IMG/VR virus record: IMGVR_UViG_3300037452_000114
Coordinates: 1-36,310 of that record
Reading direction: 5' to 3' (one strand)
Length of the DNA stretch: 36,310 nt
Source of the DNA: a virus
Shown: piece after piece, positions 6,531-36,179 of the stretch
Numbering within the stretch: the stretch's first letter is position 1
Layout: each line of letters begins with the position of its first letter
Position numbers and translations under genes: made by a program
Notes under the pieces: model-generated
What the model saw: only the letters and a program-made list of their open reading frames with translations
Told to the model about the DNA's origin: nothing
The model's database searches: none

Positions 6531-6820
6531 TGAATTGGTACGACCAAGGTCTGGCAGCAATCGAAACTGCAAAGCAGATTTTGCCTACCGCGCGAATGAC
6601 TGCGATTGTCCGATTGTACTCCGTGGCGATGGTTTTCTATCGGCATCCGATCGGAGATCGCGCATTGGATGAATTACGCAACATAATCGGCGTGGACGAG
6701 CTGAACGCTTTGTGTTTTCTGTGTGGATTTTCAACGGGCACGATGGACCCTGCTCGATGGGCAGAATTGGCTTGTATGACTAATCACGAATCGCGAGTCA
6801 CGAGTCACGAATCACTATGA
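6530..6820 (+). CDS. Hypothetical helical protein with a repeat-derived tail
   Basis: 96 aa from ATG 6530, with GGGGGAAG upstream. Helical body (AAIETAKQILP, ALDELRNIIGVDELNALCF). The last dozen residues (TNHESRVTSHESL) are translated from a heptamer array and nearly match the repeat-derived stretch TKHETRITDHDS in the gene at 5689. Its stop overlaps the ATPase start (ATGA), so the two are co-translated. Function unknown. Confidence 0.65.
   Translation: MNWYDQGLAAIETAKQILPTARMTAIVRLYSVAMVFYRHPIGDRALDELRNIIGVDELNALCFLCGFSTGTMDPARWAELACMTNHESRVTSHESL
6778..6816 (-). repeat. GTGRYTN heptamer array, partly coding
   Basis: Five units (reverse complement of CACGAAT CGCGAGT CACGAGT CACGAAT CAC) encode the tail of the upstream protein and occupy the ribosome-binding region of the ATPase gene. 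Confidence 0.8.
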
Positions 6821-8694
6821 TTTTACTCGGCTGGGAAATCGGTACCGGAAAGCGCGTGGAAATCCCGGAGACGGGGCATCTGGCGTGGTTCGGCCAGACG
6901 CAACTTTCCGGGAAAACCACGGCGCTCGAAGCCATCGCTTTTCGCGGAGAACTGCGCGCGGTAGCCTTCATAACAAAGCAGGGCGAGGGCGGATTTTTAA
7001 CTGGGAGGATGATTCCCCCTTACTTCTCCGAGCCCACCAACGACGAAGAGCAACCCCTGTGGCGCTGGGTGAAATCCATCCTGGAAGCGTCCCAACAGCG
7101 GAAACTGAATTTTGAGGAAGCCTGGATCATTCGCTGCTGCGTGGAGCCGCGTATCGCTAAAGCGCTGAAAGACGTACACGAAAACATCAAAGCCCTACTC
7201 GACGGCGAGGGCGACTACGTCGAAAAGGGACGCGGAAAGAAGAAAAAAAGGGAATGGAAATACACCCGAAAACCTGTCAGCGGGATCAACGCGGGCGTGT
7301 ACACGTCCCTGAAAGCGTATTTCGACATCGTGATGCCGCAACTCGCGCGGCTGCCCTACACCAAAAAGCTCACGCTGCATCCCGGTCTGAATGTGATGGA
7401 CCTGCGCGAATACGCGATGGAAACGCAAGCCCTGGTGATCCGTTCGGTGATGGAGTGGGTGTACCAGCACGAAAAGGGCGTGCGGGTGATCGTTCCCGAA
7501 GCCCAGGACTTCGTGCCCCAGGGAAAAAACTCCCCGGTAAAAATGGCTTGCGAGACCCTGGTGCGCAAAGCCGGGGCCAACAAAAACTTCATGTGGCTCG
7601 ATTCGCAGGATATGGCCGCGGTGGACAAGATCATGCTGCGGGCCTGCTCCATCGTGGGCATCGGCGTGCAAACTGAAATGCACGAGATCGATCGCAGTTT
7701 GGCGGGCCTCTTTACGCCCGCGCTTCGCCCAGTGGACATTGCCCGCTTGAAAATCGGGGAATTCTTCGTGCGCACGCCCGAAGCCCGCGTTTCCAAGGTG
7801 TACGTGCAGCCCGCTTGGATGTCATCGGAATTGCACGCCCAAGCCATCGCCAAGGGCGAGGAAAGCGTAGTGAGCGCCCGGCAAATGCTGCGCGCGTTCA
7901 AAATCAGTCGAGAGTCTAAACCGGCGCCGTCGTCCCCGGCGCCGCATCAATTGCTTCAAATCCAAATCCAGGAGAAAACCGATGAGGACGATCAAGCAAG
8001 CCAAAGTACGCCCGGTAGTGTCGAGGACGTTTTGCGATCAGGTGATGGCCCAGAAGAATTGGACGATCGCCATGAAACGCGCGGCGATCATGGAAAGAGT
8101 ATTCGGGATTCACAACCCGTACTGGAAACGGAGGAAGCGATGTGGCAAGAAAAATACGAAGCGCTAGAAGCGGAACACAAGACACTGATCGAAGCCCACG
8201 ACGCGCTGGCAGATCGGGTAAACGAGTTAACGGCAGAGATTTTCAACCGCGATGCAGGACACAAACCGAAAGACCACATCGAATCCGGCGCGCCTCTCAT
8301 TCCAACAAAACAAGGTGGAAATGGTTTCAGCCTGACCGTGCCCCAACTTGCTTACATCTACCAATACGTGAAGGCGAATGCGCAGAAAGACCCCGGCATC
8401 CTGGAACTGCTCACCCGTCGGCCGGAATTGCGCGTCAAGGTGGAACGGCAAACCGTGGAGATGGACGATTCCACGATCATTGGCCGCATCGCGCGCCTGG
8501 TCCACGAAGGCTACTTCAAGCAGCCGCGCAACGGTCCCACGGTGCAAAAGGAACTAAAGCGCCGCGGCTGCGATCAGCCCACCACCAACCTGTACAAACC
8601 TTTGAACAAGCTAACCGAAATGGGTTTTCTAACCCTGGAGCCGGACGGCTTTCAGGAAGTCCCGGAAATGAAGGTTCAGGTACAGAAAGCGTGA
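6817..8694 (+). CDS. HerA/FtsK-superfamily ATPase, candidate genome-packaging motor
   Basis: 625 aa; ATG overlaps the previous stop as ATGA. Walker A GQTQLSGKT (residues 26-34, K33) near the N-terminus and Walker B VRVIVPEAQDF (222-232, E228) with the E-A-[QH] pattern of HerA-type pumps; the stretch MWLDSQDMAAVDKIML behaves like the HerA arginine-finger/Q-motif region. Residues about 360-480 are a low-complexity linker and coiled-coil, and the C-terminal 130 form winged-helix-like DNA-binding segments (TIIGRIARLVHEGYF). HerA/FtsK ATPases package DNA in tailless membrane phages and pump DNA in conjugation and segregation. With no terminase here, packaging is my favoured role. It is longer than classic viral packaging ATPases because of the C-terminal part. 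Confidence 0.85.
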   Translation: MILLGWEIGTGKRVEIPETGHLAWFGQTQLSGKTTALEAIAFRGELRAVAFITKQGEGGFLTGRMIPPYFSEPTNDEEQPLWRWVKSILEASQQRKLNFEEAWIIRCCVEPRIAKALKDVHENIKALLDGEGDYVEKGRGKKKKREWKYTRKPVSGINAGVYTSLKAYFDIVMPQLARLPYTKKLTLHPGLNVMDLREYAMETQALVIRSVMEWVYQHEKGVRVIVPEAQDFVPQGKNSPVKMACETLVRKAGANKNFMWLDSQDMAAVDKIMLRACSIVGIGVQTEMHEIDRSLAGLFTPALRPVDIARLKIGEFFVRTPEARVSKVYVQPAWMSSELHAQAIAKGEESVVSARQMLRAFKISRESKPAPSSPAPHQLLQIQIQEKTDEDDQASQSTPGSVEDVLRSGDGPEELDDRHETRGDHGKSIRDSQPVLETEEAMWQEKYEALEAEHKTLIEAHDALADRVNELTAEIFNRDAGHKPKDHIESGAPLIPTKQGGNGFSLTVPQLAYIYQYVKANAQKDPGILELLTRRPELRVKVERQTVEMDDSTIIGRIARLVHEGYFKQPRNGPTVQKELKRRGCDQPTTNLYKPLNKLTEMGFLTLEPDGFQEVPEMKVQVQKA

Positions 8695-8717
8695 CTGGTG
8701 ATTCGTGATTGATGATT
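8691..8717 (+). repeat. GTGRYTN heptamer array
   Basis: GTGACTG GTGATTC GTGATTG ATGATTT begins within the last codons of the ATPase gene and supplies its TGA stop. Confidence 0.75.
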
Positions 8718-8745
8718 TCAATTCGCAAGCCGAAAAGGAGAAACC

Positions 8746-8970
8746 ATGAGACATCGCATGAGTATATTCAGCGCAGCGGGAGATTCGACGATTGCGGAAT
8801 GGGAGGAGGCCGACGATGCAGCCGTGGAAATTGCTCGTGGAATATTTGAGCAAGCAAAGAAAGAAGGCTTTGCGGCGGTCACGCCTGCGGATGGAGGGGC
8901 GCGAGTTGTGGAAAGATTTTCGCCGGAACTTAGCGAAATACACTTCCTACATCCCATCGCCGGAGGCTGA
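8746..8970 (+). CDS. Conserved small mobile-element protein (PADGG/HPIAGG type)
   Basis: 74 aa with AAGGAG before ATG. The layout 'aspartate-rich W, helix EIARGIFEQAKKEGF, AAVTPADGG, FSPELSEIHFLHPIAGG' matches a small alpha/beta family I know from phages and plasmids, whose members end in a PP-[LI]-x-GG-like motif. Its function is unknown. The 3' half overlaps the +1 frame of the next gene by 155 bases. Confidence 0.8.
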   Translation: MRHRMSIFSAAGDSTIAEWEEADDAAVEIARGIFEQAKKEGFAAVTPADGGARVVERFSPELSEIHFLHPIAGG

Positions 8971-10301: not shown

Positions 10302-10314
10302 AGCCAAAAATCCC

Positions 10315-13526: not shown

Positions 13527-13694
13527 TCAAAAGTGAACACGCCGCCGCTCTTCGCGCAGCGCTTCCTGAATCAGTTTCTTCACTTCCGGGATCAGCAATC
13601 CGATCACGTAGCGCGCCATGCGTTCCCGTTCCTGGCTCATGGTCACGCGGTCGATCGCCGCGTTCAGCCGGTCCTTGATTTCCTTATCTAGCAT
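13527..13694 (-). CDS. Small helical protein
   Basis: 55 aa. Its ATG overlaps the previous stop (TGATG). Almost entirely an amphipathic, highly charged helix (LDKEIKDRLNAAIDRV, EVKKLIQEALREERRR). Placed among lysis-region genes; function unknown. Confidence 0.65.
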   Translation of the reverse strand: MLDKEIKDRLNAAIDRVTMSQERERMARYVIGLLIPEVKKLIQEALREERRRVHF

Positions 13695-15141: not shown

Positions 15142-15561
15142 TTACACCCATGCGCCGGTGCGCATTTGCTCTTCCAGGCGCACGGCCCGGTCTCCCACTT
15201 GGCGCGCCCATTCCGAATCCCTCATTTCGTCCGCCGCCGTTTCCCATTCGCCTTGCGCCACAGCCTGCAAAAACCTCGGGAACTTTTCGAGGCCGGCGAA
15301 TCCCATGTTGAAAATCATGTTTAGAATCACGCCTTGGCGGACTCCGTCGAGCGCTGGGAACCACGGAAGTTTTCCATTCGCTTCTATGGTGATCTCCCGA
15401 ATGTCGTTTTCTAAGAGGTGCTCGATTTCTTCGTCGCTGAGTCCCTTGCCGTTTAGGTTGCGCCCCACGCCGATGGTCAGCTTCCCTACGGTGTCCCGAT
15501 AGGGGAACTTGCGTACGCTTTCATCGCGGCGAAGCTGCTCGTAGATGTCGGCTATCGGCAT
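15142..15561 (-). CDS. Endolysin, T4-type lysozyme (GH24)
   Basis: 139 aa from ATG 15561. The catalytic triad is clear: E14 (RRDES), D23 (YRDTVG) and T29 (LTIGVG), with the exact E-9-D-6-T spacing of T4 lysozyme E11/D20/T26. Further family landmarks are NLNGKGLSDEE and NMIFNMGF. It cleaves the peptidoglycan glycan backbone during host lysis. No signal peptide, so release would need a holin; several candidates lie just downstream. Confidence 0.93.
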   Translation of the reverse strand: MPIADIYEQLRRDESVRKFPYRDTVGKLTIGVGRNLNGKGLSDEEIEHLLENDIREITIEANGKLPWFPALDGVRQGVILNMIFNMGFAGLEKFPRFLQAVAQGEWETAADEMRDSEWARQVGDRAVRLEEQMRTGAWV

Positions 15562-15995
15562 AGCGTCTTTTCCAAAATCGTTTTTCCCGCCTTCGTCAAT
15601 CCGCACTTTATCCATCCAGACATCTGAAAGCAATATCCCGGATTGGAGCTTTTGATTTTACTCCCATCGACAAACGTATAAGCGCGGCCCGGACCCCATC
15701 GCTCCACGGCGTGACTTTCGGCGTCCAGGATGATTTCACTGGACAGTCGCTCGCTTTCATTCCGAAAAATCGCGCAGTTGTATCCCGTTTGGCTGTCCAT
15801 TCGTAGAGTGGGATCGGGATACATCCAAACGAAAAGGACTGTTCCTGTTGTGTTTCGTAAGACGATTTTTCGGCCTGAATAGCAAAATTGTCGAGCTCCG
15901 ATGGTCCGCCGAGAGTAGTGGCGATCAGCCAATATGGACATTTCAGGATCGAAATGATTTGTGCGGATCAGTCGATTTGTGAATGGAAGGATCAC
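15552..15995 (-). CDS. GNAT-like phage protein
   Basis: 147 aa from a GTG at 15995 (ATG 15940 possible). The order 'ADRHYSRRTIGARQF', 'GRKIVLRNTTG', 'CAIFRNES', 'AYTFVDGSKI', 'NPGYCFQMSGW' and 'GLTKAGKTIL' matches a GNAT-fold family frequent in phages and prophages. The substrate is not known to me. The gene overlaps the lysozyme start by 10 bases. As in other phages I remember, it follows a small protein with the motif RAYLAYIAHRYRRQ. Confidence 0.75.
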   Translation of the reverse strand: MILPFTNRLIRTNHFDPEMSILADRHYSRRTIGARQFCYSGRKIVLRNTTGTVLFVWMYPDPTLRMDSQTGYNCAIFRNESERLSSEIILDAESHAVERWGPGRAYTFVDGSKIKSSNPGYCFQMSGWIKCGLTKAGKTILEKTLCR

Positions 15996-16416: not shown

Positions 16417-16962
16417 TCATTCCAAAAGACTGAATAAAAACCATCCGGCCAGGATCGCCCCGCCGATCCAGAAGGCCGTACCTACCGACCATGCGGACAG
16501 CGCGCCGGACGTTGCGGGCACGCCGGGAAGCGGCAGCGGATTGCCTACGCTCACGGTGTATTGGCTGCCCATGTTTCCCAGGATCGTCTGGATGTAATCC
16601 TGAGTCTCGAGGGGCGCGTAGACGATCCAGGCGGCGCCGTGCGCGGCGATGGCCGCGTCCATGTTCCCCGGACCCCAATTGTAAGCGCCTAGGGCTTCCT
16701 TCACGTTCCCAGAGTATCTAGAGAGCATTTGGGAGAGATAGTGCACGCCGCCCTGAATGTTTTGCGTGGGATCGGTGGGATCGACGCCCAGATCGGCGGC
16801 TGTCGCGGGCTCCAACTGAAAAATCCCGATGGCCCCGGCCGGGCTGACGGCGGATTCGTTCAAGCCCGATTCCTGCATGGCCACTTCCAGCGCCAACCGC
16901 GGATCGACGCCGTAAGCCGTGGCCGTGGAAAGGATCAGAGCCGAGATGTCCTGTGAAGTCAT
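16417..16962 (-). CDS. Lytic transglycosylase (SLT) with C-terminal membrane anchor
   Basis: 181 aa. SLT fold landmarks: catalytic E31 in AMQESGLN, AIGIFQLEP (about 44-52) and AYNWGPGN (about 93-100). After a Pro/Gly linker the protein ends in one membrane helix (AFWIGGAILAGWFLFSLLE). In PRD1 a membrane-associated transglycosylase (P7) rides in the virion and opens peptidoglycan at entry; this tail-anchored version could do the same. The start overlaps the previous stop (ATGA). Confidence 0.88.
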   Translation of the reverse strand: MTSQDISALILSTATAYGVDPRLALEVAMQESGLNESAVSPAGAIGIFQLEPATAADLGVDPTDPTQNIQGGVHYLSQMLSRYSGNVKEALGAYNWGPGNMDAAIAAHGAAWIVYAPLETQDYIQTILGNMGSQYTVSVGNPLPLPGVPATSGALSAWSVGTAFWIGGAILAGWFLFSLLE

Positions 16963-24064: not shown

Positions 24065-24073
24065 TTTCCCTCC

Positions 24074-24092
24074 GACGCACTCCCTGTGCGTC
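24074..24092 (-). promoter_or_regulatory. Leader hairpin, GUGCG family, copy 1
   Basis: A perfect 7-bp stem GACGCAC/GTGCGTC with a 5-nt loop (RNA loop AGGGA), then GGAGGG and ATG 24064. It lies in the 40-bp gap between the two large exported-protein genes. Confidence 0.65.
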
Positions 24093-24104
24093 CTCTTCCC
24101 TTCC

Positions 24105-25425: not shown

Positions 25426-26139
25426 CTACCACGCTACCGGATTGTCCGACGCGTCGAATTGATCGTCCCAGGTGCGCGGATAGAAATAGCCGCTCAGAAG
25501 CGCGCCGGCATTCACGCCGGTAGGCAAAGCGTTGTTGCGCACTACCCACTGAATTACGTCGTTTTCAAAAATGCGAATGCCGGAAATACGCGAGGGATTA
25601 TTGATCAGCCCGAGCGAGGCCAGCACTTTTTCGTAATTTCTTTCCGCGTTGCCGCCGGTATACACGCCCGCCGGTGGATTGCGGACGATCTGCCACACGG
25701 CATCCCCAGAGAAATCCGCCCAAGCGCCGCCCACGATCACGTTGGCAATCCACTTGATCACGCCGTTTCTGCCCGGCGGACAGGTCACTTGGGCGACTAC
25801 CGTAAAAACCGTGGCGCTGATGGCCGGAAGCGCCACGCCTGCCGTGTTGCGAAACGATTCCGAATCCGGCGGCTCGATCAGCCAGGGCGCGGAAATCAGC
25901 CGCGTGGCGCGCTGGATTTGCTGCAAGACGCTTTGCGTATCTTGAATCGCGGCGATGGTGGGATCGGTCGAAACCGGCTCCGTGGGCGGCGGGCGCAGGA
26001 TCAACTTCGGCGCCATGCTGCGATCTGCGTGCAGCTTGTAGGGCCAGGTCGATCCCCGAATGGACGATGCGGCCGCGTCCGTGATGTTCGGTTGTCCCGA
26101 CGCTTCCGAAGGTCCGGTGTCTAGTTTGTCATACGCCAT
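25426..26139 (-). CDS. Beta-rich virion-type protein
   Basis: 237 aa from ATG 26139 (GTG 26157 also possible). The N-terminal 90 residues are Pro-rich and extended. From residue about 95 the pattern is a beta-sandwich: TVFTVVAQVTCPPGRNGVIKW, ANVIVGGAW, WQIVRN, IRIFENDVIQWVVRNNA, ending AGALLSGYFYPR. This strand rhythm is what I would expect of a jelly-roll or spike domain. Flanked by other beta-rich genes, so a capsid, vertex or spike component is likely; unproven. Confidence 0.7.
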   Translation of the reverse strand: MAYDKLDTGPSEASGQPNITDAAASSIRGSTWPYKLHADRSMAPKLILRPPPTEPVSTDPTIAAIQDTQSVLQQIQRATRLISAPWLIEPPDSESFRNTAGVALPAISATVFTVVAQVTCPPGRNGVIKWIANVIVGGAWADFSGDAVWQIVRNPPAGVYTGGNAERNYEKVLASLGLINNPSRISGIRIFENDVIQWVVRNNALPTGVNAGALLSGYFYPRTWDDQFDASDNPVAW

Positions 26140-26263
26140 CGGGGTTTCCCCAATCACTTTGGTTGAAGCATTTCGGGCACGAACTTTCTAAAACCAATCC
26201 AGGGAGCCATCGCCATTTGCGATGGACAATCAAGCACCAAAAGAATCTGAACCAGAGTTTCAT
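26129..26263 (-). CDS. Possible 44-aa zinc-knuckle protein
   Basis: ATG 26263 to TGA 26129, overlapping the start of the next gene by 11 bases. A Trp/Arg-rich N-terminus (MKLWFRFFWCLIVHRKWRW) is followed by CPKC. The start codon is at the edge of a heptamer array and lacks a good Shine-Dalgarno. Confidence 0.35.
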   Translation of the reverse strand: MKLWFRFFWCLIVHRKWRWLPGLVLESSCPKCFNQSDWGNPDGV

Positions 26264-26298: not shown

Positions 26299-26802
26299 TC
26301 ACTGCCTCCACCACGTCGAATATCCGAACATGCACAGGTCCACGATGTTAGTGGTGCTGCCGCTGAGATTTTGAATCTTGCAGACTACCGGCGAACCCGC
26401 GGCGATGAAGTGCGGGATGCGCACTAGGCCGGGCTCTTGGGCGATGGGCGCGAAATTGGATTGATTCTGCCCGTACTTGGAATATTTGTAGGCGCCTTCC
26501 TCTTCGGTGATCTGAAAGCGGAAGCTGCCTTGATTGCCGATGCTGGCCACAGACGCGCGGCCCATTACGGCCACGAGCCAAAAATCCTCCGTCACCGTGA
26601 TGCGCGTCAAATCAGTTTGCCCAGCAGTGAGCGACAATTCCGGGAATTGGTACCAGAATAAATGCGCGCTGTGCAGGGAGAGCCTCACCCACTGCGGCAG
26701 CGTCCACGCCGCCGACGCCAACTTCCGGCGATTCTGCCAGGCGCCCAGCGTGGGATTCATCGGCGCGCCCGGCACTCGTCCTTGTATCCACGGGTTGATC
26801 AT
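26299..26802 (-). CDS. Candidate single jelly-roll capsid or spike protein A
   Basis: 167 aa. A basic helical N-terminus (about 1-45) is followed by about eight short strands: LFWYQFPELSLT, RITVTEDFWLVAVMGRAS, SFRFQITEEE, LVRIPHFIAAGSPVVCKIQN, TNIVDLCMFGYSTWW. The motif order (early V-x-x-D-F-W-L, late 'x-N-x-V-x-L-x-x-F-G-Y') is shared with the next upstream gene (26867-27352), suggesting paralogy. A pair of single jelly-roll proteins is the capsid plan of P23-77-type phages; that parallel is inference. A hairpin sits six bases before the start codon. Confidence 0.7.
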   Translation of the reverse strand: MINPWIQGRVPGAPMNPTLGAWQNRRKLASAAWTLPQWVRLSLHSAHLFWYQFPELSLTAGQTDLTRITVTEDFWLVAVMGRASVASIGNQGSFRFQITEEEGAYKYSKYGQNQSNFAPIAQEPGLVRIPHFIAAGSPVVCKIQNLSGSTTNIVDLCMFGYSTWWRQ

Positions 26803-26842: not shown

Positions 26843-26872
26843 AAATTACGAATCACTACTCACGAATCACGA
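26843..26872 (-). repeat. GTGRYTN heptamer array
   Basis: Minus-strand GTGATTC GTGAGTA GTGATTC GTAATTT, spanning the end of the upstream gene and the gap before the hairpin. Confidence 0.7.
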
Positions 26873-27352
26873 TGGAGAAGGCAACGCTCCGAGCTGCGCG
26901 GCCATCGCTGCCGGGTACAGTTTGTAGCCCCAGAAATCCACTTGCACGGTGTTCGCCGTGCCGCTCGTGTCAATCGTCGTGACCTTGTACGAGCGCTTTT
27001 TGGGCATGAGTTGAGGAATCAGTCCCGCCGGGAACGGCAGTTGCGCCGTGCCTACGAAATTGTCGAAATTCACCGGAGCGCTCTGCCAGGCCAGGCCGCC
27101 CGCGCCGCCTTCCGTCACTTGAATGCTGAGGGCGTTGCTGGTGCGGCTGCCGATCAGCATCAAAAGCTGGAAATCGGCATCGCTGTCAATCTGGAACGAT
27201 TGCGCCTGCGTGTCGTTCCCGGCGTGCGTCAGATTGACGATGTAGTGAAACAATTTGGCGATGTAAAGCTGGCCGCCCAGTTCCATGATTTGCGGATCGG
27301 CTTGCAGCGCATTCATTTGATCCTGCGTGAGTGCCGGCACTTGCGAACTCAT
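26867..27352 (-). CDS. Candidate single jelly-roll capsid or spike protein B
   Basis: 161 aa. A helical N-terminus (TQDQMNALQADPQIM) precedes a beta-rich domain: FQIDSDADFQLLMLIGSRTS, LSIQVTEGGAGG, an NFDNFVGTAQLPFPAGL turn, YKVTTIDTSG and NTVQVDFWGYKLYP. The pattern 'D-F-x-L-L ... G-T-A-x-x-P-F ... S-G-x-A-N-x-V-x-x-x-F-x-G-Y' recurs in small structural-looking phage proteins I have seen, and parallels protein A. A capsid, vertex or spike role is likely, but the fold needs confirmation. Confidence 0.7.
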   Translation of the reverse strand: MSSQVPALTQDQMNALQADPQIMELGGQLYIAKLFHYIVNLTHAGNDTQAQSFQIDSDADFQLLMLIGSRTSNALSIQVTEGGAGGLAWQSAPVNFDNFVGTAQLPFPAGLIPQLMPKKRSYKVTTIDTSGTANTVQVDFWGYKLYPAAMAAQLGALPSPS

Positions 27353-27509: not shown

Positions 27510-28274
27510 CTACAGAACGGCTCGTGCCTTCTGCCCTTCCAGATACACCCACGCGTTGATGCCCGTGCCGATGGGCACGGTATTGTTGGCGTTGGTGGTG
27601 AAGCCCGTGGCTTGCGCCCAGGCCGCCAGCGTGGGATCGACTTCCACTTTGAACGCCTGTTGCTGGGCGATCAAAATGCCGTCGATTTCCGGGAACTGGT
27701 CGACGCCGGGAGTGCCTGGGCATCCGGGGTCCGTCAAGCGGAATCCCTGGTGCTCGTTGGGCAACCCGTTGCCTACCGGCCCGATGATGGTGTTGGCCGC
27801 CGTGGCGCCGAATTGCTGCGCCCAGATGCCGCCGCCCGCCGGAAGTTTTAGGAAGTGCGCGACCACGAAGAACGATTTCGTGGAGATGAAAAAGTTCACG
27901 ATGGTCTGGCTTCCGAACTTGATGGCGTCCGTCTGGTTGCACAGATTGTCCAACACGCAGGTGATCCCGCGAACGAGCATCCGTTCGGGGGCCTGCAACT
28001 GGTTCGGCTGCACCATGCTGGTCATCTGCAGGGTTTTCGCTACCGTGGCGCCGCCGGTGATGGTGAAATTGTTGTTCTGTACGATCGAGAACAGCGTTTG
28101 CTTCACTACCGCCGTGGAAACCGCCACGCCGTAATAATCCCATTCCGGCTGAACCACGAAATCTCCCAGCCCTGCCGCCAGCATGTTTTTCAAGCGGAAG
28201 CGGGGCCGGCCGATTTCATGCGCCGAAATTTCCGGCAAATGAGCGAATCTCTTTACCTTGCTAAGAAGTTGCAT
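27510..28274 (-). CDS. Candidate major capsid protein, beta-rich
   Basis: 254 aa with AGGAG before ATG. After a basic N-terminus come regularly spaced strands: TLFSIVQNNNFTIT, LQMTSMVQPNQL, ERMLVRGITCVLDN, QTIVNFFISTKSFFVVAHFL then KLPAGGG, a variable loop, AFKVEVDP and a final INAWVYLEGQKARAVL. The 'P-E-R-M-L-V-R-x-I ... F-x-I ... L-P-A-G-G' run recalls putative jelly-roll capsid proteins of unclassified phages. It is the largest non-exported beta protein in the structural cluster. Assignment is tentative; a minor capsid role is the main alternative. Confidence 0.65.
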   Translation of the reverse strand: MQLLSKVKRFAHLPEISAHEIGRPRFRLKNMLAAGLGDFVVQPEWDYYGVAVSTAVVKQTLFSIVQNNNFTITGGATVAKTLQMTSMVQPNQLQAPERMLVRGITCVLDNLCNQTDAIKFGSQTIVNFFISTKSFFVVAHFLKLPAGGGIWAQQFGATAANTIIGPVGNGLPNEHQGFRLTDPGCPGTPGVDQFPEIDGILIAQQQAFKVEVDPTLAAWAQATGFTTNANNTVPIGTGINAWVYLEGQKARAVL

Positions 28275-28328
28275 TTTGCGATTCTCCTTTCTCCGGCTCG
28301 CAGGCTTCGCAGCTCGGATGTTTGCCAG

Positions 28329-28356: not shown

Positions 28357-28357
28357 C

Positions 28358-28858
28358 TTACGCCACATACTTCGAATACGCGCGGCGCGGTCCAAGCATG
28401 CCCATCGCTGCGGCCGCCGCGGGTGTTACCGCTGCGCCCTTGGATGGCCCGGTCTTGGAAGCGGACGCGGCGATCGCCGGCGCGCCCGGCGAATACGCCG
28501 GCGTCGGGATCGTGAAGTTGAGCGGGCCGTACTGGCCGAGCGAAGCGGTGAGCAGCGTTTTGCCCGTGACGATGGTGATCGCGCGGGAAACGGCTTGCAC
28601 CGATCCGCCGATGAGCACGCCTTCCGAAAGGTCGTTGGACATGCCTTTCAAAAGATACGCCCCGCCGAATCCGACCACGAGCGCCATGCCCACGCCGGCC
28701 CATCCCGTATTGAGGCTCGGGGAGACCATGTTGGGAATGGCGGACGCGGCGATCGCGCCGCCCAAAGCGCCGGCAACCTTCACCGCGAGTTGATTGATGC
28801 TGCCCGCGGCAAAGGGATTGCGGCGCCGATGGTGACGATGATGATGATGTCTTGCCAT
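28358..28858 (-). CDS. His/Arg-rich membrane protein of the virion cluster
   Basis: 166 aa from ATG 28858, with a perfect AAGGAGG. It opens MARHHHHRHHRRRNPF, a natural poly-His/Arg tract suited to binding nucleic acid or metal. Then a hydrophobic Gly/Ala-rich helix pair (LAVKVAGALGGAIAASAIP, NTGWAGVGMALVVGFGGAYL) and a third amphipathic segment; the last third is Pro/Ala-rich. An RRRNP N-terminus followed by an NTGW-[AM]-G motif and membrane helices recurs, as I remember it, in metagenomic phage proteins. It could link the genome to an internal membrane. Function unproven. Confidence 0.75.
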   Translation of the reverse strand: MARHHHHRHHRRRNPFAAGSINQLAVKVAGALGGAIAASAIPNMVSPSLNTGWAGVGMALVVGFGGAYLLKGMSNDLSEGVLIGGSVQAVSRAITIVTGKTLLTASLGQYGPLNFTIPTPAYSPGAPAIAASASKTGPSKGAAVTPAAAAAMGMLGPRRAYSKYVA

Positions 28859-28957
28859 AAAAAATCCTCCTTCCCCGCCGTTGTGGGTTCTTCCCGCGTG
28901 ACGCCGGCGCGCGTCATACGTCGGATTGACGAGCCGAACGATCATCTTTTATTTCGC

Positions 28958-29009: not shown

Positions 29010-29741
29010 CTATTGACCTCCGGCTCCCAAATTCACCAGCGGTTCGACGGAGGAATCGCGTCGCACCGCGTTCAAATCCATTTGATCCCCTAAATCATAC
29101 CGGCCGCCCTTGAAAAACATTTCGCCGGTGTAGGGATCGACGAGCAAAGCCATTTTCGTACCGTCAAAACTGGAGAGCGAAGAAATCGGCATCTTGTAGC
29201 TGCCCAAAGCGCCCCAGGTCGCGCCGCGTCCCGCCGTCACGCACACAATTTGCGAGACGGGATGGAAAACCAAGAAATTCAGAAAGCGCGCCGAAGCGAT
29301 TTCCGCGAGCAGTTGCTTGAACTTCGGAGCCTCGTGCTCTTTTTGTCCCGGCGCAAGATGCGATTGCCCTTCCTGATCGACATCGTAGGGATTCTGCGCG
29401 GGCCGTGACGGATCGGGAACGTCTGGCAAGCGAGCCAGGCCGCGGCGAATCGGCAGCCGCGAAACGATCAGCAAATCCCCCTCGGGGATGGATCGCGCAA
29501 TCGACGGGCCGAAGTCCGGCCAGTAGATGCGCCGCCCCACTTTTGCCGCCTTGTACAGCGGCATGCGGCAATCGGCGTCCGGCTCAAAATAAATCGTTTC
29601 GATCATGGCGAACACGTTGTACCCGCGCCCCGGCCCGGCGGCCGTGCGCTCGCGCTTGATTTTCAAGGAAAAATCCAAATCCTTCGCTGCGCCGAGGACG
29701 ATGTTGGCCTTGCTGATTCCGTGTTCAGTTCCCGCGAGCAT
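29010..29741 (-). CDS. Hypothetical virion-cluster protein
   Basis: 243 aa with AGGAG before ATG. Mixed alpha/beta; no membrane segment. Visible pieces: FDLS-like strand DLDFSLKIKRERTAAGPGRG, LLIVSRLPIRRGL, a helical middle (KFKQLLAEIASARFLNFLVF) and a C-terminal beta region (TKMALLVDPYTGEMFFKGG). No family recognised. Its place just before the hairpin and capsid candidates suggests a structural or assembly role. Confidence 0.7.
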   Translation of the reverse strand: MLAGTEHGISKANIVLGAAKDLDFSLKIKRERTAAGPGRGYNVFAMIETIYFEPDADCRMPLYKAAKVGRRIYWPDFGPSIARSIPEGDLLIVSRLPIRRGLARLPDVPDPSRPAQNPYDVDQEGQSHLAPGQKEHEAPKFKQLLAEIASARFLNFLVFHPVSQIVCVTAGRGATWGALGSYKMPISSLSSFDGTKMALLVDPYTGEMFFKGGRYDLGDQMDLNAVRRDSSVEPLVNLGAGGQ

Positions 29742-29873: not shown

Positions 29874-30614
29874 TCAGTTGACAATTCCTTCCGGTTCGAT
29901 GGTGTACTCGCCGCCCACCAGAAAAAGCCTGCCTTGCGGGCCGCGACGGTCGTACATCAGCCGCGGACGCACGCCGGTCACGTCTCCGAATTTATGTTCG
30001 TAGTCGCTGGCGATGCCGTTGACGTGTTCTTTCTTGGCGCGGTAGGCGATGGCCATGCACTCGCCCAGGTCGATCATTTCCTTGGAATTGTCCGCGCCTA
30101 TCATGGAAAGCTGCCCGCGCGTCACCTTCTGATCGCCGCTGACGAAGTAGATTTGCGATCTGCCCACGTTGCCCGCCACGATGATTCCCTTCCCCGTGAA
30201 ATCCAGCTCGGCCCACTTCCATCCCACTGGTTTGCGGTTCACTTGCAACTCCACGAGCGCGCCTAGATGCCCCAGATTCGCGGGACGAGGTTCCGGTTCG
30301 ACGAAGGTGTCCACGTGCTCGCACGGCGCGCCGCGGAATTCTTCGCACACTTCGCTTGCCCCGGCCAGGCCGCGCGATGGCGTTTCGGAACCTTCGTGCG
30401 GATTGGCCATCATCACCACCAGTTCCGCAGGATTCGGTAAGCGGCATGGATTCTCGTGACGCGGATGCAGCACTTCGATCACCCGCCCGGAACCTGTAGT
30501 GCGCCGCCCGCGCGGAAAGGCGATGCGCACCAGATGCCCATTACGCCGCACGGTGCGTACTTTTTCGCCGCCGCGCAGCGTGGAGTAATGCTGCACTGTG
30601 AATCGATCGGACAT
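29874..30614 (-). CDS. Hypothetical virion-cluster protein
   Basis: 246 aa. A basic N-terminus (RGGEKVRTVRRNGHLVRIAF) is followed by a Pro/Glu-rich middle and a beta-rich C-terminal half (FTGKGIIVAGNVGRSQIYFV, MYDRRGPQGRLFLVGGEYTI). Contains two to three cysteines (VCEEFRGAPCEHV). Not recognised. Its translation start is preceded by a stable hairpin with the Shine-Dalgarno on the far side. The 132-bp gap downstream (29742-29873) holds no gene. Confidence 0.7.
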   Translation of the reverse strand: MSDRFTVQHYSTLRGGEKVRTVRRNGHLVRIAFPRGRRTTGSGRVIEVLHPRHENPCRLPNPAELVVMMANPHEGSETPSRGLAGASEVCEEFRGAPCEHVDTFVEPEPRPANLGHLGALVELQVNRKPVGWKWAELDFTGKGIIVAGNVGRSQIYFVSGDQKVTRGQLSMIGADNSKEMIDLGECMAIAYRAKKEHVNGIASDYEHKFGDVTGVRPRLMYDRRGPQGRLFLVGGEYTIEPEGIVN

Positions 30615-30660: not shown

Positions 30661-31005
30661 TTAAGCCGATGCCGCCTTTTTGCCGCGCGTGGAAAGACGT
30701 TCCGGCGGGAGCGCCACGGTCAAGCCATGCTTCATGTGCCCGCGCTTGTAAAGCTGCACGTCCACCAGGCCCTTAGAAAGCTGGACCGAGCGGACCACGC
30801 CGTCCAAATCCTCGCCTTCGATGTTGGCAACCACTTCGTCGCCAGGATTGTATTCGTCATGCTTTTTCGTGCTGGTCATCGCTCGCTCCTTGTCGTTTTG
30901 ATCGCCTTCCGTTTCTTCCAAATCTAGATCGTCCTGCAAAGCCTGTTCGGCTTCATCTTCCCGAGCCTCGCGCGATGCTTCCTGCCGTTTCGTTTCGTGC
31001 GTCAT
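30661..31005 (-). CDS. Acidic protein with KOW/SH3-like C-terminus
   Basis: 114 aa from ATG 31005, with GGAGGAAAG upstream and an ATGA overlap with the previous stop. The first 45 residues are a very acidic helix (ASREAREDEAEQALQDDLDL). From residue 50 a small beta barrel is likely (YNPGDEVVANIEGEDLDGVV, GLVDVQLYKRG), of the KOW/SH3 type that binds RNA or protein. The C-terminus is basic. An internal start at MTSTKKHDE could yield a shorter form. Confidence 0.7.
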   Translation of the reverse strand: MTHETKRQEASREAREDEAEQALQDDLDLEETEGDQNDKERAMTSTKKHDEYNPGDEVVANIEGEDLDGVVRSVQLSKGLVDVQLYKRGHMKHGLTVALPPERLSTRGKKAASA

Positions 31006-31841
31006 CGGCGCTTTCCTCCGGTGAAATTGTTTAGCAAAACCACAGCCGCAACAAATCCGCCGATGTATAAAGCGTTGTTCTCTAGCCACGTCAAAGCATC
31101 ATTCGGATTGGGATTCGGATTCGGCGCGGCCCCTCCTGATGGTGTGGACACTAACGAAAGATTGGAGCCTGAAATGTTGTTTCCCACGATTCCAATTAGC
31201 ACGCCATCGCATACAGACTTGGCATCGCTCGTGAATGCATTCCCTACCGAATCCAGGATCGTGAACTGAAAATGAATCGGCGCGCCCGTCCCAAACACCT
31301 TATTCAAAATCGTCTCGTCGTTACTCGATTGCACTACTGACATGCCATGAGCCGTGAGAGCCGAAGCGAATTGAGACATTGCCGAAGCCGGAGTGACCGT
31401 CAAATTCCCCGGGCCGCCCACAACCGTCGCAGTATAGAGAACTGTGCTTCCGCTGGGGACTTGCGCAGGCAAAGCAGACTGCGGAGTTTGCACAGAGACC
31501 GATGTTGGCGTTACCGTGGTTCCTTCCGTAGTTTTGAGTCCCCCGTATTTCGCCATCAGAGTAGGCACGTCAGTCGTGCCAGCCATCAACGCCTGAATGT
31601 CGGCGTCCGTAGCGCCCGCAGCGCTCAAGGCATCGATTGTGTTGCCGTCGAGACCGGCATCCCAAGCTGCTTGCATCTGTGCGTCAGAAACAGTGCCAAG
31701 GTTGCCGTGCGATCCCGCGTGGTATCCCAGCATCGCATGCGCGCCGGGCTGATAGCCGAGCATCGCGTGCGCGCCGGGTTGATAACCCATGCCCATTCCG
31801 GACCGAAGTTCCTCAAACGCGGGATGGTTCGGAAAAATCAT
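31002..31841 (-). CDS. Tail-anchored virion-type protein with GYQPGAHAML repeats
   Basis: 279 aa; ATG overlaps the previous stop (TGATG). Residues 18-48 hold three tandem copies of a 10-residue repeat (GYQPGAHAML, GYQPGAHAML, GYHAGSHGNL). A UBA-like helical stretch (IDALSAAGATDADIQALMAG) follows, then a beta-rich middle and one C-terminal membrane helix with a basic end (ALYIGGFVAAVVLLNNFTGG, then KRR). One of a group of tail-anchored proteins in this operon; likely a virion membrane protein. Confidence 0.75.
   Translation of the reverse strand: MIFPNHPAFEELRSGMGMGYQPGAHAMLGYQPGAHAMLGYHAGSHGNLGTVSDAQMQAAWDAGLDGNTIDALSAAGATDADIQALMAGTTDVPTLMAKYGGLKTTEGTTVTPTSVSVQTPQSALPAQVPSGSTVLYTATVVGGPGNLTVTPASAMSQFASALTAHGMSVVQSSNDETILNKVFGTGAPIHFQFTILDSVGNAFTSDAKSVCDGVLIGIVGNNISGSNLSLVSTPSGGAAPNPNPNPNDALTWLENNALYIGGFVAAVVLLNNFTGGKRR
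31713..31796 (-). repeat. 30-bp coding repeat, three copies
   Basis: Tandem DNA repeat encoding the GYQPGAHAML units of the protein at 31002-31841. Two copies are nearly identical, indicating recent duplication. Confidence 0.8.
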
Positions 31842-32029
31842 CAGCGTCCTATTTTCTCCGAGTGTATAAATTCTAATTCGGACACTTCGACTTTAGAAAT
31901 TTCACCGTCATCAAAACGTACTTCAATCGCAAACGGATCGTCGGTGAATGCATGGACAATTCCAAACCGTTTCGTTTGGGACATAAAAACCTTATCTCCA
32001 ATTTTCAAAGTAGTTCCATCAAAAATCAT
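31841..32029 (-). CDS. Small KOW/SH3-like protein
   Basis: 62 aa from ATG 32029, which overlaps the previous stop (ATGA). Beta-barrel rhythm: LKIGDKVFMSQTKRFGIVHA, FAIEVRFDDGEISKVEVSEL. Resembles the C-terminal half of the protein at 30661-31005. Perhaps a small RNA- or protein-binding factor; unproven. Confidence 0.7.
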   Translation of the reverse strand: MIFDGTTLKIGDKVFMSQTKRFGIVHAFTDDPFAIEVRFDDGEISKVEVSELEFIHSEKIGR

Positions 32030-32631
32030 CGCCGCCGCCCTTTCTTTCCGCCCAGAAGCCACGATGCCGCGATTACTGCCGCCGCAGCCACGAGGCCGTT
32101 AGGATATCCGGCGAACAAAGTTTCCTCGGAAAGCCAATTCGTGATCGACGAAAACGAAAATCCCGACGATGGCGCGGCGGCGCTGGCCGAACCTTGCGCG
32201 ATCTGCGCGGCGCTAGGAGCGGGCGTGCCGGAAATCAAATCTCCCTGCGCGGCGAGGGCGGAACCTTGCGGCGTCAATTTATTTCCGCCGGTCAAGAGCG
32301 AGCCGGACTGATACAGCGTTTGCGCGTCCCCGGTGAGATAGCCAGAATAGGTGACGCCCGTCACGGGATCGACGATGCCCGTCAACTCCACCGGCAAGCC
32401 GCCAGGCGATCCCGAAGTGGAGACCGTTTGACCTGTGGCCACGACGGGGCCTTGCACTTCCACCGGAAGTTGTTCCGGCTGGACTCCTGGTTGTACTTGT
32501 TGCGGGGGAAGAATGTGCGGTGCTGGCGTTTCGGGAATCGGCAACACAGTCCGGGAAAGAGGCATATTGACGCGCATCGCTGAAAAGGAAGCCAGCGCAG
32601 CGCCCAGATGAGGATCGGTGATGGCGATCAT
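32026..32631 (-). CDS. Tail-anchored virion-type protein
   Basis: 201 aa from ATG 32631 (ATGA overlap). Pro/Gln/Gly-rich extended body; a short beta-like motif (GIVDPVTGVTYSGYLTG); then SITNWLSEETLFAGYPNG, a membrane helix (LVAAAAVIAASWLL) and the tail GGKKGRRR. The LFAGYPN-membrane-basic end matches two neighbours, so these are paralogues or share an anchoring module. C-terminal single-helix anchors suit small virion membrane proteins. Confidence 0.75.
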   Translation of the reverse strand: MIAITDPHLGAALASFSAMRVNMPLSRTVLPIPETPAPHILPPQQVQPGVQPEQLPVEVQGPVVATGQTVSTSGSPGGLPVELTGIVDPVTGVTYSGYLTGDAQTLYQSGSLLTGGNKLTPQGSALAAQGDLISGTPAPSAAQIAQGSASAAAPSSGFSFSSITNWLSEETLFAGYPNGLVAAAAVIAASWLLGGKKGRRR

Positions 32632-33401
32632 CGCCGCCTCTTTCTTGGCCGGGACTGTATGTAGGAAAACGCAATCGTTCCCAACAGCAGCCCCACGCCA
32701 ACGACGCCGTAATTGGGAAAACCGGGAATCATCGTGGAGCCGGTAAACCACGACGTAAGTGAACTCATCGCACCGGAAATGTTTCCGAAAGGCGAGGTTG
32801 TCGACGGCGTTTTGTACAAATTTCCGCCATTCAAAAGCGTCTGCCCTTGCGTGGTGAGTTTTCCCGCAGCCGTCACGAGCTGGCCCGCGGCCTGCAAACC
32901 CTGCGCGGCCACGCTTAAGTTATTGGTGTTCACCGTATTCGTCACGCCGCTGTTCGGATCGGTGATGTTTATATCTTGTCCTTGTCCCGTCGCAGTGGTC
33001 TGCAGGTTCGCCGTCGCCGTCCCAGAGGTAGCCGCGGTGATCTGTTCCGCGATGGTGTACGGCACGGTCTGCCCGGTCTGAATGTTGGTGTAGGTGCCGT
33101 CGCCGTTGCTGGTGAATTCGTTGCCCACAGTGGCCGGATACATCGTCTCCAGCGACGGAGAAAGTTGATTCGGCAGCGGCAAAACAGGCATATCGATCGT
33201 GGCAGGCGGACCTAAATCGATGATCGGCGGCGCGGGATTGTCTGGAGCAATAAGTCCGCCGGCAACGTCCGTGGAAGTGGTATCGAATGCGATGGGATCT
33301 TGGCCCAGCATTCCCAGGAACGCGCCGCGCATGCCGCAGCACCGTTCGCCCGTGGGCGATACGGTGAGTCCAGGAAGCGGAGAATCAAGTTGCGCGTACA
33401 T
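32628..33401 (-). CDS. Tail-anchored virion-type protein
   Basis: 257 aa. Body rich in P, T, Q and N (TNIQTGQTVPYTIAEQIT, GLQAAGQLVTAAGKL) with a repeat-like section shared in style with the protein at 32026. It ends SLTSWFTGSTMIPGFPNYG, a membrane helix (VVGVGLLLGTIAFSYI) and a strongly basic tail QSRPRKRRR. The start is preceded by a GGYAA-loop hairpin rather than a clear Shine-Dalgarno. Likely membrane-associated virion component. Confidence 0.75.
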   Translation of the reverse strand: MYAQLDSPLPGLTVSPTGERCCGMRGAFLGMLGQDPIAFDTTSTDVAGGLIAPDNPAPPIIDLGPPATIDMPVLPLPNQLSPSLETMYPATVGNEFTSNGDGTYTNIQTGQTVPYTIAEQITAATSGTATANLQTTATGQGQDINITDPNSGVTNTVNTNNLSVAAQGLQAAGQLVTAAGKLTTQGQTLLNGGNLYKTPSTTSPFGNISGAMSSLTSWFTGSTMIPGFPNYGVVGVGLLLGTIAFSYIQSRPRKRRR

Positions 33402-33433
33402 GGCTTTTTCCGAGGCCCCTTACCGGGGCCTTA
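33402..33433 (-). promoter_or_regulatory. Leader hairpin, GGYAA-loop family, copy 3
   Basis: A perfect 7-bp stem AGGCCCC/GGGGCCT (33413-33431), RNA loop GGUAA, 11 bases before ATG 33401. The upstream GGGAGG lies on the far side of the hairpin, as at 30615. Confidence 0.7.
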
Positions 33434-33775
33434 GCGATGCCTCCCGCCAAAAACTTTAGCCAAAACGAAAACGCCCGCGCCGATGGCAAAGATCGAATTC
33501 GGCATTCCGGGAATGAACGTAGATTCCCCCATCCAAGTGAGCATCTGATCCCAGATACTCGTCGAAGTGGGCGTGGTCGCCGTGCTGATGGCGAATTGCC
33601 CGCCGGGGCCGAACGAAATATTAGTAAGCGGCGAATCTCCCAAGTCGCCCAGGCCGCGAAAGTTGGGATGGATGGCGTTTTTGTTGCGCGTGGAAAGCAG
33701 GCCGTACGCGCCGAGTCCGCGGAAATTCGGATTCAGCCCGTTGCCGTTCTTCGTGGATAGTCGCGCGTAGGCCAT
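33431..33775 (-). CDS. Tail-anchored protein with two PNFRGLG repeats
   Basis: 114 aa. The N-terminus carries two tandem copies of a roughly 22-residue motif (LSTKNGNGLNPNFRGLG, LSTRNKNAIHPNFRGLG), also present once in the protein at 33824. A Ser/Thr/Gly-rich linker precedes LTWMGESTFIPGMPNS, a membrane helix (IFAIGAGVFVLAKVF) and GGRHR. Only a weak ribosome site is visible; the leader is a heptamer array. Likely virion membrane protein. Confidence 0.75.
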   Translation of the reverse strand: MAYARLSTKNGNGLNPNFRGLGAYGLLSTRNKNAIHPNFRGLGDLGDSPLTNISFGPGGQFAISTATTPTSTSIWDQMLTWMGESTFIPGMPNSIFAIGAGVFVLAKVFGGRHR

Positions 33776-34786: not shown

Positions 34787-35247
34787 CCGCCCATTGCCTC
34801 TTTGTATTTTTCGCGGACATCCGGACTTAATTCTGAAGCCTTCTTTTTCATCGCTTCCGCCGAAACACTGGACACTAACTTGCCAAGCATCGAAGGAGAA
34901 AACAGGTCAATCCGTTTTGCTAAATCGATGAAAAGCTGCATCACGTGTTGTTTACAAGCATCGCAAGAGACCACGTGATCTTTCCAACGATCATGAATCA
35001 TGATGTGCTGTTCCGTGCCCGTAGTGTGGTCGTGGATTTTTTCCAAGGATTCAGGACAAACGATTCTGAGCCGCAGAAGTTCGTCCGGTTCAATACGATT
35101 CCGGTCAGCGGAAATCAGTTGAGAGGTTATGTTGAATTCGTCGCTCACGCCCAAAAATCCCCTGTCCGAGTATTCCCAGATGCGCCGCAAAAATCGCGTC
35201 CACCAGAATCCGAGGCGCGCTGTCCGGCGGATCGTCACCATAGTCAT
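34783..35247 (-). CDS. Helical protein with HxxxCxxC zinc motif
   Basis: 154 aa from ATG 35247, which overlaps the transglutaminase stop (ATGA). Basic aromatic N-terminus (RLGFWWTRFLRRIWEYS). Residues about 95-108 read DHVVSCDACKQHV, an H-x4-C-x2-C-x2-H zinc-finger pattern like that of anti-sigma and similar proteins. The C-terminal helix is charged (SPDVREKYKEAM). A regulatory role is possible but speculative. Confidence 0.65.
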   Translation of the reverse strand: MTMVTIRRTARLGFWWTRFLRRIWEYSDRGFLGVSDEFNITSQLISADRNRIEPDELLRLRIVCPESLEKIHDHTTGTEQHIMIHDRWKDHVVSCDACKQHVMQLFIDLAKRIDLFSPSMLGKLVSSVSAEAMKKKASELSPDVREKYKEAMGG

Positions 35248-36179
35248 TCGCTCGCGAGCCACCAGATTCCGCCGATCACCGCGGCCAAGAAAAGCAATTC
35301 GCCGGTGGAGGTGGAAAAGAAGGAAGTCTGCGCCGGCACGGACATCGCCGATCCTCCCGGCCCGATCGCCGGACCCACCACGGGCCGCACCGTCTGCCCG
35401 CCCACGGATTTCAGCGCGCCGGATGCGTCCGTAAGGATGGCGGCCACGTCGGAGGTGACGCCGGCGAGTCCGCGCAGCGTTTGCGGGCGATACCCGGACA
35501 TGGTGCCGTCCGCCCCGCCGGGATAATCCTCGTGCGAATCGTCCGTCAAACTCCACCACTGGCGGCGGAAGAAAGATTCCGGCGCCACGCCGATCACCGC
35601 GCCGGGGCGCGCAGCGTCCAGGGGATACCATTCGCCGTCAATAAAAACTTCGCAGTAGACGTGCGAAAAATAATCCGGCATGCGCGGGTCGCTGGCCACG
35701 GTCACTAGGCGAGTTTCGAATCCGATGGAGCCGAGCAGCGCGGGCAAAACATTGGCGTTGATATCGTCGCAATCCCCGGCCTTCAATTGCAGCAGCTCGC
35801 GCGTGGGACGCAAGGCTTCCTTGGTGATGGGATCGTTCACGAAATAAAACGAGCGCGCGTAATCGTAGATGGCGGCGATCTGCGCCTGCGAATCGTGCGG
35901 TTGCGCCCCAGCGTTGCGGATGATTTCGATGGCCGTGCGGTTGACGAAAGGGTCTTTCCAGGCATCGTCCACCAAGCCGCGCAGCACCGCGATGGTCTGC
36001 GCGGTGCCATCGTCGCCCCAAGCCAGCGGCGCGGAGAAAAGCAATCCGGAACGATCGGCAATCGGAAAAATTCCCATGCAGGGCGAAGGATGCCCGAAGT
36101 TCTTTCCGCGCGAAAGAACATCGTGGACGTGCGCACCCGTTATTTCATCGGGTACAACACCGCGATGCGTGCGTGACAT
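35244..36179 (-). CDS. Transglutaminase-like cysteine protein with C-terminal membrane anchor
   Basis: 311 aa from ATG 36179, with AAGGG four bases upstream; ATG 36076 is an alternative. The papain-like transglutaminase triad is visible: C137 in LKAGDCDD, H173 in FSHVYCE, D188 in YPLDAARPG. The final helix (LLFLAAVIGGIWWLASE) is a membrane anchor. Related proteins occur in phage structural operons, where they may crosslink or cleave virion or cell-wall peptides; the true substrate is unknown. First gene of the leftward block. Confidence 0.85.
   Translation of the reverse strand: MSRTHRGVVPDEITGAHVHDVLSRGKNFGHPSPCMGIFPIADRSGLLFSAPLAWGDDGTAQTIAVLRGLVDDAWKDPFVNRTAIEIIRNAGAQPHDSQAQIAAIYDYARSFYFVNDPITKEALRPTRELLQLKAGDCDDINANVLPALLGSIGFETRLVTVASDPRMPDYFSHVYCEVFIDGEWYPLDAARPGAVIGVAPESFFRRQWWSLTDDSHEDYPGGADGTMSGYRPQTLRGLAGVTSDVAAILTDASGALKSVGGQTVRPVVGPAIGPGGSAMSVPAQTSFFSTSTGELLFLAAVIGGIWWLASE
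36099..36119. promoter_or_regulatory. Palindrome GTTCTTTC-CGCGC-GAAAGAAC, candidate operator
   Basis: A perfect 8-bp inverted repeat with a 5-bp centre, about 140 bp from the rightward start in circular coordinates. It lies inside the N-terminal codons of the transglutaminase-like gene if translation starts at 36179, or in its leader if it starts at 36076. The form suits a dimeric repressor at the divergent promoter region. Confidence 0.5.

Follow-up and report, generated by a model that had tools for sequence, protein, structure and literature searches.

The nearest known relative of the genome analysed here is most likely SSIP-1, an orphan salt-lake phage. SSIP-1, which has been isolated, is a tailless membrane phage that has two major capsid proteins (MCPs) (PMC6356626, PMC4958249) and a genome described as resembling hardly anything in GenBank (PMC6356626), and an AAA_25 ATPase, gp40, has been proposed as its packaging motor (PMC4124505). 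The Helvetiavirae, or vertical single-beta-barrel group (P23-77, SH1 and SSIP-1), are characterized by two single jelly-roll MCPs (PMC8328091, PMC4958249); an FtsK/HerA-family packaging ATPase and a tailless icosahedral virion enclosing a membrane are further marks of the group. For Acidobacteriota, searches of an open-access subset of the literature yielded no account of tailless membrane phages.

We read the window (IMG/VR record IMGVR_UViG_3300037452_000114, the whole stretch of 36,310 nucleotides) as a complete, circular phage genome, that of a tailless icosahedral dsDNA virus infecting Acidobacteriota of class Terriglobia, at a probability of about 0.8. It most likely represents a family not yet described, made up of tailless and probably membrane-containing phages that infect the soil bacteria Acidobacteria. 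Genes are named below by their first coordinate, and their positions (Table 1) agree with those of an earlier, sequence-only reading that had proposed a new tailless membrane-phage lineage.

Genome, relatives and host

The contig is circular by assembly, as had been claimed: its ends are identical over 127 bp, a k-mer-length overlap closing a 36-kb genome. End overlaps in related records are exactly 127 bp in several, 77–119 bp in others and 169 bp in a contig from a metagenome-assembled genome (MAG), which points to assembly k-mer overlap rather than a biological terminal repeat. Across the circle junction, gene 54 is divergently transcribed from, and adjoins, the transglutaminase gene.

The comparison with virome contigs that the sequence-only reading had proposed, run in IMG/VR, returned about 30 contigs sharing a syntenic structural block, the complete ones mostly 33–39 kb and many of them circular. 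The block runs from the transglutaminase through C-terminally anchored proteins, a basic transmembrane (TM) protein, 27510, 26867, 26299 and 25426 to spike-like proteins. The same syntenic block is carried by a 34,655-bp contig in a Terriglobia MAG (G030), whose candidate capsid gene came to light in a later search of whole genomes, and divergent versions occur in genomes of class Terriglobia. One of the integrated relatives, G293, is a 27-kb provirus lying between 18-bp repeats with chromosomal genes on its flanks; others are G551 (on a 4.86-Mb contig), G686, G738 and G441. An earlier profile scan (A1) had detected no relative among GTDB contigs.

That the window is instead a plasmid, whether conjugative or mobilisable, or a provirus-like element that has lost virion production, is very unlikely. 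Its circular genome and HerA/VirD4-like ATPase would suit such an element, as would the several integrated relatives in which no lysis genes or packaging-type ATPase are recognisable; against this, a lysozyme is present, and close relatives retain the whole structural block, with 27510 at 83–96% identity. Neither 27510 nor the ATPase has a match in 72,556 plasmids, which also speaks against the close plasmid matches that the sequence-only reading had named as a possible refutation, and Pfam matches to relaxase and type IV secretion genes were absent among 20 window proteins.

Table 1 Features of the window, by position.
Feature	Coordinates	Strand	Evidence or occurrence
Conserved core gene	54..1361	+	23 records incl. 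G293, G030; also G551, G686, G738
DnaB-N/AAA_25 replicative helicase	1696..3306	+	PF13481 E=2e-28, PF00772 E=7e-22
HerA/FtsK-type ATPase, C-terminal winged-helix-like region	6817..8694	+	GQTQxSGKT Walker A, PEA Walker B
T4-type lysozyme (endolysin)	15142..15633	-	PF00959 E=8e-9
SLT lytic transglycosylase, C-terminal anchor	16417..16962	-	PF01464 E=3e-25
Hypervariable large protein, putative receptor-binding part	19784..21634	-	Homologue in no relative
Large signal-peptide protein, variable C-terminus; putative receptor-binding/spike	21650..24118	-	39 matches in 29 records
Signal-peptide-like segment, beta-rich by inspection; putative vertex/spike part	24105..25259	-	30 records incl. G293, G030
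Capsid-like protein	25426..26157	-	31 records; best but weak match P23-77 small MCP VP16
Paralogue of 26867	26299..26802	-	Iterated HMM joins both families; hhalign E=2e-4
Jelly-roll-like capsid/vertex protein	26867..27352	-	SSIP-1 gp47 homologue
Candidate major capsid protein, most conserved structural protein	27510..28274	-	254 aa
Small protein, His/Arg-rich basic N-terminus, hydrophobic middle	28358..28945	-	30 records + G293, G551, G686, G738
Conserved structural-block protein	29010..29741	-	29 records incl. G293, G030
Conserved structural-block protein, NPAELV..NP motif	29874..30614	-	29 records + five integrated elements
C-anchored protein	31002..31841	-	Homologues in 22 records
C-anchored protein, paralogue of 33431 and 32628	32026..32751	-	C-terminal hydrophobic segment
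C-anchored protein, paralogue of 33431 and 32026	32628..33401	-	C-terminal hydrophobic segment
C-anchored protein, paralogue of 32628 and 32026	33431..33775	-	Anchor shuffle p=0.013
Putative virion membrane protein, internal TM and C-terminal hydrophobic segment	33824..34786	-	Conserved; homologues in 28 records, incl. G030 and G293 provirus
Transglutaminase-like protein, C-terminal hydrophobic anchor	35244..36179	-	PF01841 E=1.1e-8; SSIP-1 gp34 homologue

Structural proteins and affinity to SSIP-1

Two window families match structural proteins of SSIP-1. The family HMM of the transglutaminase-like protein matched gp34 (E=7.6e-23), which has the same Pfam domain and likewise a C-terminal hydrophobic segment, and the 26867/26299 family profile matched gp47 (E=2.9e-6), which also ranked first among 502 ORFs when the 26867 profile was compared by hhalign; the gp47 match fell to E=3e-4 once the most divergent sequences had joined the profile. 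No comparable match arose among unrelated phage-contig ORFs or reversed sequences. Transglutaminase-like domains are common, and the gp34 match alone would be weak. Further likenesses are a circular dsDNA genome of similar size (43,788 bp) with no TerL annotated, a basic/TM protein upstream of the capsid genes, and gp40, which carries the same AAA_25 domain as helicase 1696. Unlike the window, SSIP-1 carries integrase and invertase genes and infects Salisaeta rather than Acidobacteriota; its MCP-like gp45 and gp46 have no profile match to 27510, and SSIP-1 is missed when 27510 or the window transglutaminase serves as a single-sequence tblastn query against phage genomes. A search of IMG/VR with gp45 matched SSIP-1 itself only, too little for an SSIP-1 alignment. 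Gene 29874 has no significant profile match to SSIP-1 gp44; read by eye, gp44 contains a similar NPAELV..NP-like motif.

Among the capsid candidates, 27510 is 83–100% identical within its clade and about 40% identical in clade B, with homologues in G030 and divergent ones in five integrated elements. Its AlphaFold2 model, built from 22 sequences, was poor (pLDDT 48.5) and gave no significant Foldseek match; in 50,697 phages, tblastn found no match to 27510 or two paralogues of it, nor to the transglutaminase or the ATPase, and a PDB sequence search with profiles returned nothing useful. The small protein 28358 lies directly upstream of 27510, its start likely at an internal ATG. Of the beta-rich capsid-like proteins whose structures the sequence-only reading had wanted predicted, 26867 yielded a confident jelly-roll-like beta-sandwich in AlphaFold2 (pLDDT 83, pTM 0.74). 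Foldseek matched 26867 to beta-sandwiches of many kinds, capsids and others, at low TM-scores, the highest query TM-score among the matches listed being 0.54 for I1ZBI0 (BFVD, 256 aa). I1ZBI0 has the length of SSIP-1 gp47. For 25426, the best of 502 ORFs from seven tailless phages was P23-77 VP16 (hhalign E=0.0012, next best 0.028), a match that by itself is not significant. Matches at E=0.01–0.05, STIV C92 among them, were treated as noise.

Where at least seven C-terminal anchors had been claimed, seven C-terminal hydrophobic segments were found (16417, 31002, 32026, 32628, 33431, 33824 and 35244), with five clearly above their shuffled versions, 35244 borderline (p=0.06) and 33824 not above them (p=0.16). 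C-anchored proteins make up roughly a fifth of the proteins here vs ~3–6% in tailed controls. Family HMMs of the three paralogues 33431, 32628 and 32026 gave about twice as many matches as there are genomes; because 32026 overlaps the previous gene, its true start is probably inside the ORF.

P23-77 (Helvetiavirae, Matsushitaviridae) is a tailless membrane phage that the window resembles in the weak match of 25426 to VP16 and in a similar transglycosylase; it differs in its 17-kb genome, in a 224-aa packaging ATPase close to the capsid genes, and in VP17, which has no sequence counterpart in the window. The phage described here is known from its sequence. Haloarcula virus SH1 (Sphaerolipoviridae) is also tailless and membrane-containing, with a genome of similar length (30.9 kb); unlike the window it is linear and archaeal, and no protein match to it was found. 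With SSIP-1 at 43,788 bp, circular, and SH1 at 30,889 bp, the idea that 36 kb exceeds the known size of such viruses did not hold.

Could the window be a PRD1/PM2-type (Tectiliviricetes) phage, 27510 being a small double-jelly-roll capsid protein like PM2 P2 and the HerA-like protein a packaging ATPase? The size of 27510 (254 aa, P2 269 aa) would allow it, and the transglycosylase resembles PRD1 P7 (family HMM E=5e-23; P23-77 transglycosylase E=1.4e-4), but 27510 has no profile match to PM2 P2, its paralogues, at only about 182–207 aa, are too short for two barrels, and where structural proteins do match, they match those of SSIP-1 and VP16. PRD1 and PM2 have a single, double-jelly-roll MCP, and neither their capsid nor their ATPase matched above noise, a short ATPase segment excepted (below). 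We consider such a phage unlikely. The window sides with SSIP-1 and P23-77, members of the two-MCP, single-beta-barrel group, and not with the PRD1 or PM2 of the PRD1/PM2/P23-77-type fit first proposed.

Packaging and the absence of tail genes

Thirty window proteins, all those longer than 300 aa included, were scanned with Pfam and/or PHROGs and gave no significant match to TerL, portal, HK97 or tail-module families, so the absence of terminase, portal, HK97 capsid and tail genes held up in the profile searches that the sequence-only reading had suggested; one TerL and one portal PHROG likewise found nothing in 13 family genomes. The lysozyme and SLT-domain matches are generic, to families that also take in tail lysins; both enzymes had been correctly recognised (Table 1).

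The HerA/FtsK-type motifs of the ATPase are evident by inspection, as claimed, and profile support is weak: a 63-column alignment to PM2 P9 (hhalign E=0.007) spans Walker B and the next motif. The protein is not diagnostic of PRD1-type packaging, since tailed phages that have TerL, portal or HK97 genes encode homologues and none was found in the integrated relatives. We rejected the idea that all contigs sharing the ATPase (G015–G029) are relatives: G018, G020, G022, G024 and G027 have TerL and/or portal genes, and G019, G021, G025 and the fragment G029 are family members. A search of the G293 element for any Walker-A packaging ATPase found none, and a Varidnaviria-type packaging ATPase, about 225 aa long, did not turn up either.

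The occurrence of this ATPase in tailed phages, a TerL hint on it (phrog_2666, E=0.026, the only one in the window) and large signal-peptide proteins that could be fibres would fit a divergent tailed phage with terminase, portal and capsid too diverged for recognition. In tailed phages, however, the ATPase co-occurs with genuine TerLs and so does not replace TerL there; the lack of portal, HK97 or tail-module matches and the homology to a tailless isolate's structural proteins also argue against this explanation, which we regard as quite unlikely. A tailless, probably membrane-containing lineage is supported by homology and gene order shared with SSIP-1 structural proteins, not by tail-gene absence alone; the lineage first proposed survives on that ground, while its size and HerA-ATPase arguments fail.

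In the tailless phage that we favour, 27510, with 26867, 26299 and 25426, would build the shell, the C-anchored and transglutaminase-like proteins may sit in an internal membrane, and the large proteins with signal peptides could form vertex spikes. The anchored transglycosylase would breach the cell wall as the phage enters, and the lysozyme would lyse the host; candidate packaging motors are the HerA-like ATPase and the AAA_25 ATPase.

Implications

About 30 virus contigs, together with several elements integrated in genomes of a single acidobacterial class, now join SSIP-1 as its relatives. More tentatively, and as a possibility that we would not favour at present, SSIP-1 and the Acidobacteriota viruses and proviruses may form a new lineage of tailless single-jelly-roll phages, at order or class level, whose DNA packaging dispenses with the FtsK/HerA ATPase that is standard in Varidnaviria. 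A shortcut also falls away: where a contig lacks TerL, a HerA-like ATPase does not show that packaging is of the PRD1 type. Through the integrated relatives, the proposal can be tested in acidobacteria that grow in culture.

Hallmark genes and the HerA-like ATPase

Profile searches of 30 window proteins against Pfam and/or PHROGs gave no significant match to TerL, portal, HK97 or a tail module, in agreement with the sequence-only reading, which had held that terminase, portal, HK97 capsid and tail genes are missing; the domains recognised were DnaB/AAA_25, a helicase-methyltransferase fusion, a lysozyme, an SLT transglycosylase and a transglutaminase-like domain. Neither TerL nor portal was found in 13 family genomes searched with one TerL PHROG and one portal PHROG, single families to which the broad window scans are superior in weight. 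The window ATPase, which has no Pfam family, carries HerA/FtsK-type motifs and a C-terminal winged-helix-like end. As part of a combination of features, it had also been taken to point to a PRD1/PM2/P23-77-type virion, an argument that we do not retain: several contigs that encode a homologue of it (G018, G020, G022, G024 and G027) also encode TerL, portal and/or HK97 proteins, so that its presence is no marker of packaging. HerA-like ATPases with a winged-helix-like end are common to these tailless phages and to tailed phages of other lineages. The complete circular genomes of the family have the gene, but it was not found in the examined stretches of five integrated relatives (G293, G551, G686, G738 and G441). 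This distribution is compatible with packaging and also with a function in extrachromosomal replication or maintenance. In SSIP-1, the nearest known relative, the proposed packaging ATPase is gp40 (PMC4124505). Its Pfam family, AAA_25, is also that of window 1696-3306.

Putative virion proteins

Family HMMs were run on the full ORF sets of SSIP-1, P23-77, PM2, PRD1, SH1, FLiP and STIV; ORFs of unrelated phages and reversed sequences served as controls. SSIP-1 gp47 was matched in two segments by the HMM of the paralogues 26867 and 26299 (E=2.9e-6), and gp34 by that of the transglutaminase (E=7.6e-23), with nothing comparable in the controls; adding divergent integrated sequences to the profiles weakened the gp47 match to E=3e-4 and strengthened the gp34 match to 7e-32. 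The transglycosylase HMM matched PRD1 P7 (5e-23) and P23-77 (1.4e-4). By hhalign against 502 ORFs, gp47 ranked top for 26867 (0.0003; runner-up 0.0078) and P23-77 VP16 for the capsid-like protein 25426 (0.0012; runner-up 0.028), and the candidate major capsid protein 27510 had no convincing match. SSIP-1 is a tailless, membrane-containing isolate with two MCPs (PMC6356626, PMC4958249). Its gene order resembles that of the window, with the basic/TM protein gp44 ahead of gp45, gp46, gp47 and gp48.

Structure prediction agreed with a capsid-like character for one of the beta-rich proteins. For 26867, 50 diverse sequences of the family yielded a good model (pLDDT 83, pTM 0.74), in which about eight strands are arranged like a jelly roll; the 27510 model was poor. 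Foldseek matched 26867, with low TM-scores, to jelly-rolls and comparable beta-sandwiches. Viral proteins among them were birnavirus VP2, a nanovirus capsid and one chain of HHIV-2, a membrane-containing virus; carbohydrate-binding modules and other proteins were also hit. In BFVD, the highest query TM among the matches listed, 0.54, was to entry I1ZBI0 (256 aa), which we infer from its equal length to be SSIP-1 gp47.

Three late proteins begin with signal-peptide-like segments, unusual for virion parts, and the first ~41 residues of one, 24105-25259 (MARKMNIPKAKQIQGLRKAIANRKTPKQFLPSLKKRLAK), form a separate small ORF in a second clade (G013, G014) and are fused in the window's clade.

Genome form, relatives and probable host

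The first and last 127 bases of the 36,310-bp IMG/VR virus record are identical. Because the same exact overlap recurs in several related records (77-119 bp in others), we read it as an assembly k-mer overlap of a circular or circularly permuted molecule. The SNF2-like helicase-methyltransferase, possibly an anti-restriction module, is swapped or absent in many close relatives.

Features of the window and its relatives
Feature	Sequence	Coordinates	Strand	Remark
Gene block	window	1-13.5 kb	+	replication, ATPase, helicase-methylase
Gene block	window	13.7-36.2 kb	-	lysis, spike-like and structural genes
HerA-like ATPase	window	6817-8694	+	
SNF2-like helicase fused to DNA methyltransferase	window	10255-12537		N6/N4
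Conserved late-block protein	window	17412-18194		very weak glycosyltransferase Pfam hint only (E=0.13)
Signal-peptide-like late proteins	window	13694-14083; 21650-24118; 24105-25259		
Divergent 27510 paralogues	G004	3581-4267		
	G005	14702-15322; 15879-16427		
	G006	6905-7528		
	G010	28190-28756		
Capsid candidate frame	G025	8323-9069		one in-frame TGA
18-bp direct repeat TATACGTTATCAGACGTT	G293:C10	73007-73024; 100101-100118		bounds 27-kb provirus

Queries with 27510 and the ATPase retrieved ten close relatives, 34-37 kb in length, as well as the second clade (~40% identity in 27510), and alignment-based scans found the structural proteins together in ~30 contigs. Some close relatives carry 27510 paralogues apart from the main copy, possibly minor capsid or vertex proteins. 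A Terriglobia MAG contains a contig of 34,655 bp whose ends overlap by 169 bp (G030, JAIQFB010000036.1) and which bears the structural block, ATPase and transglycosylase.

A contig in a MAG does not prove a host; elements integrated in large chromosomal contigs are strong host evidence. In G293, a genome that shares its phylum and class with G030, a 27.1-kb element lies within a 150-kb contig. It is surrounded by miaB-like and truB-like chromosomal genes and has homologues of 54-1361, 21650, 24105, 25426, 26299, 26867, 27510, 28358, 29010, 29874, 33824 and the transglutaminase. No clear integrase was found among its genes, and it may therefore use a host recombinase. Four further loci are more divergent: G551 (4.86-Mb contig), G686 (497-kb contig), G738 and G441.

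The shell would most likely consist of 27510, 26867, 26299 and 25426 and enclose a membrane, in or on which the C-anchored proteins would lie together with the basic TM protein and the transglutaminase-like protein; the variable proteins with signal peptides that are encoded from 19784 to 25259 would form a receptor-binding vertex. The anchored transglycosylase would act during entry and the lysozyme during release, and in the window's clades the genome would be maintained in circular form, with some relatives integrating.
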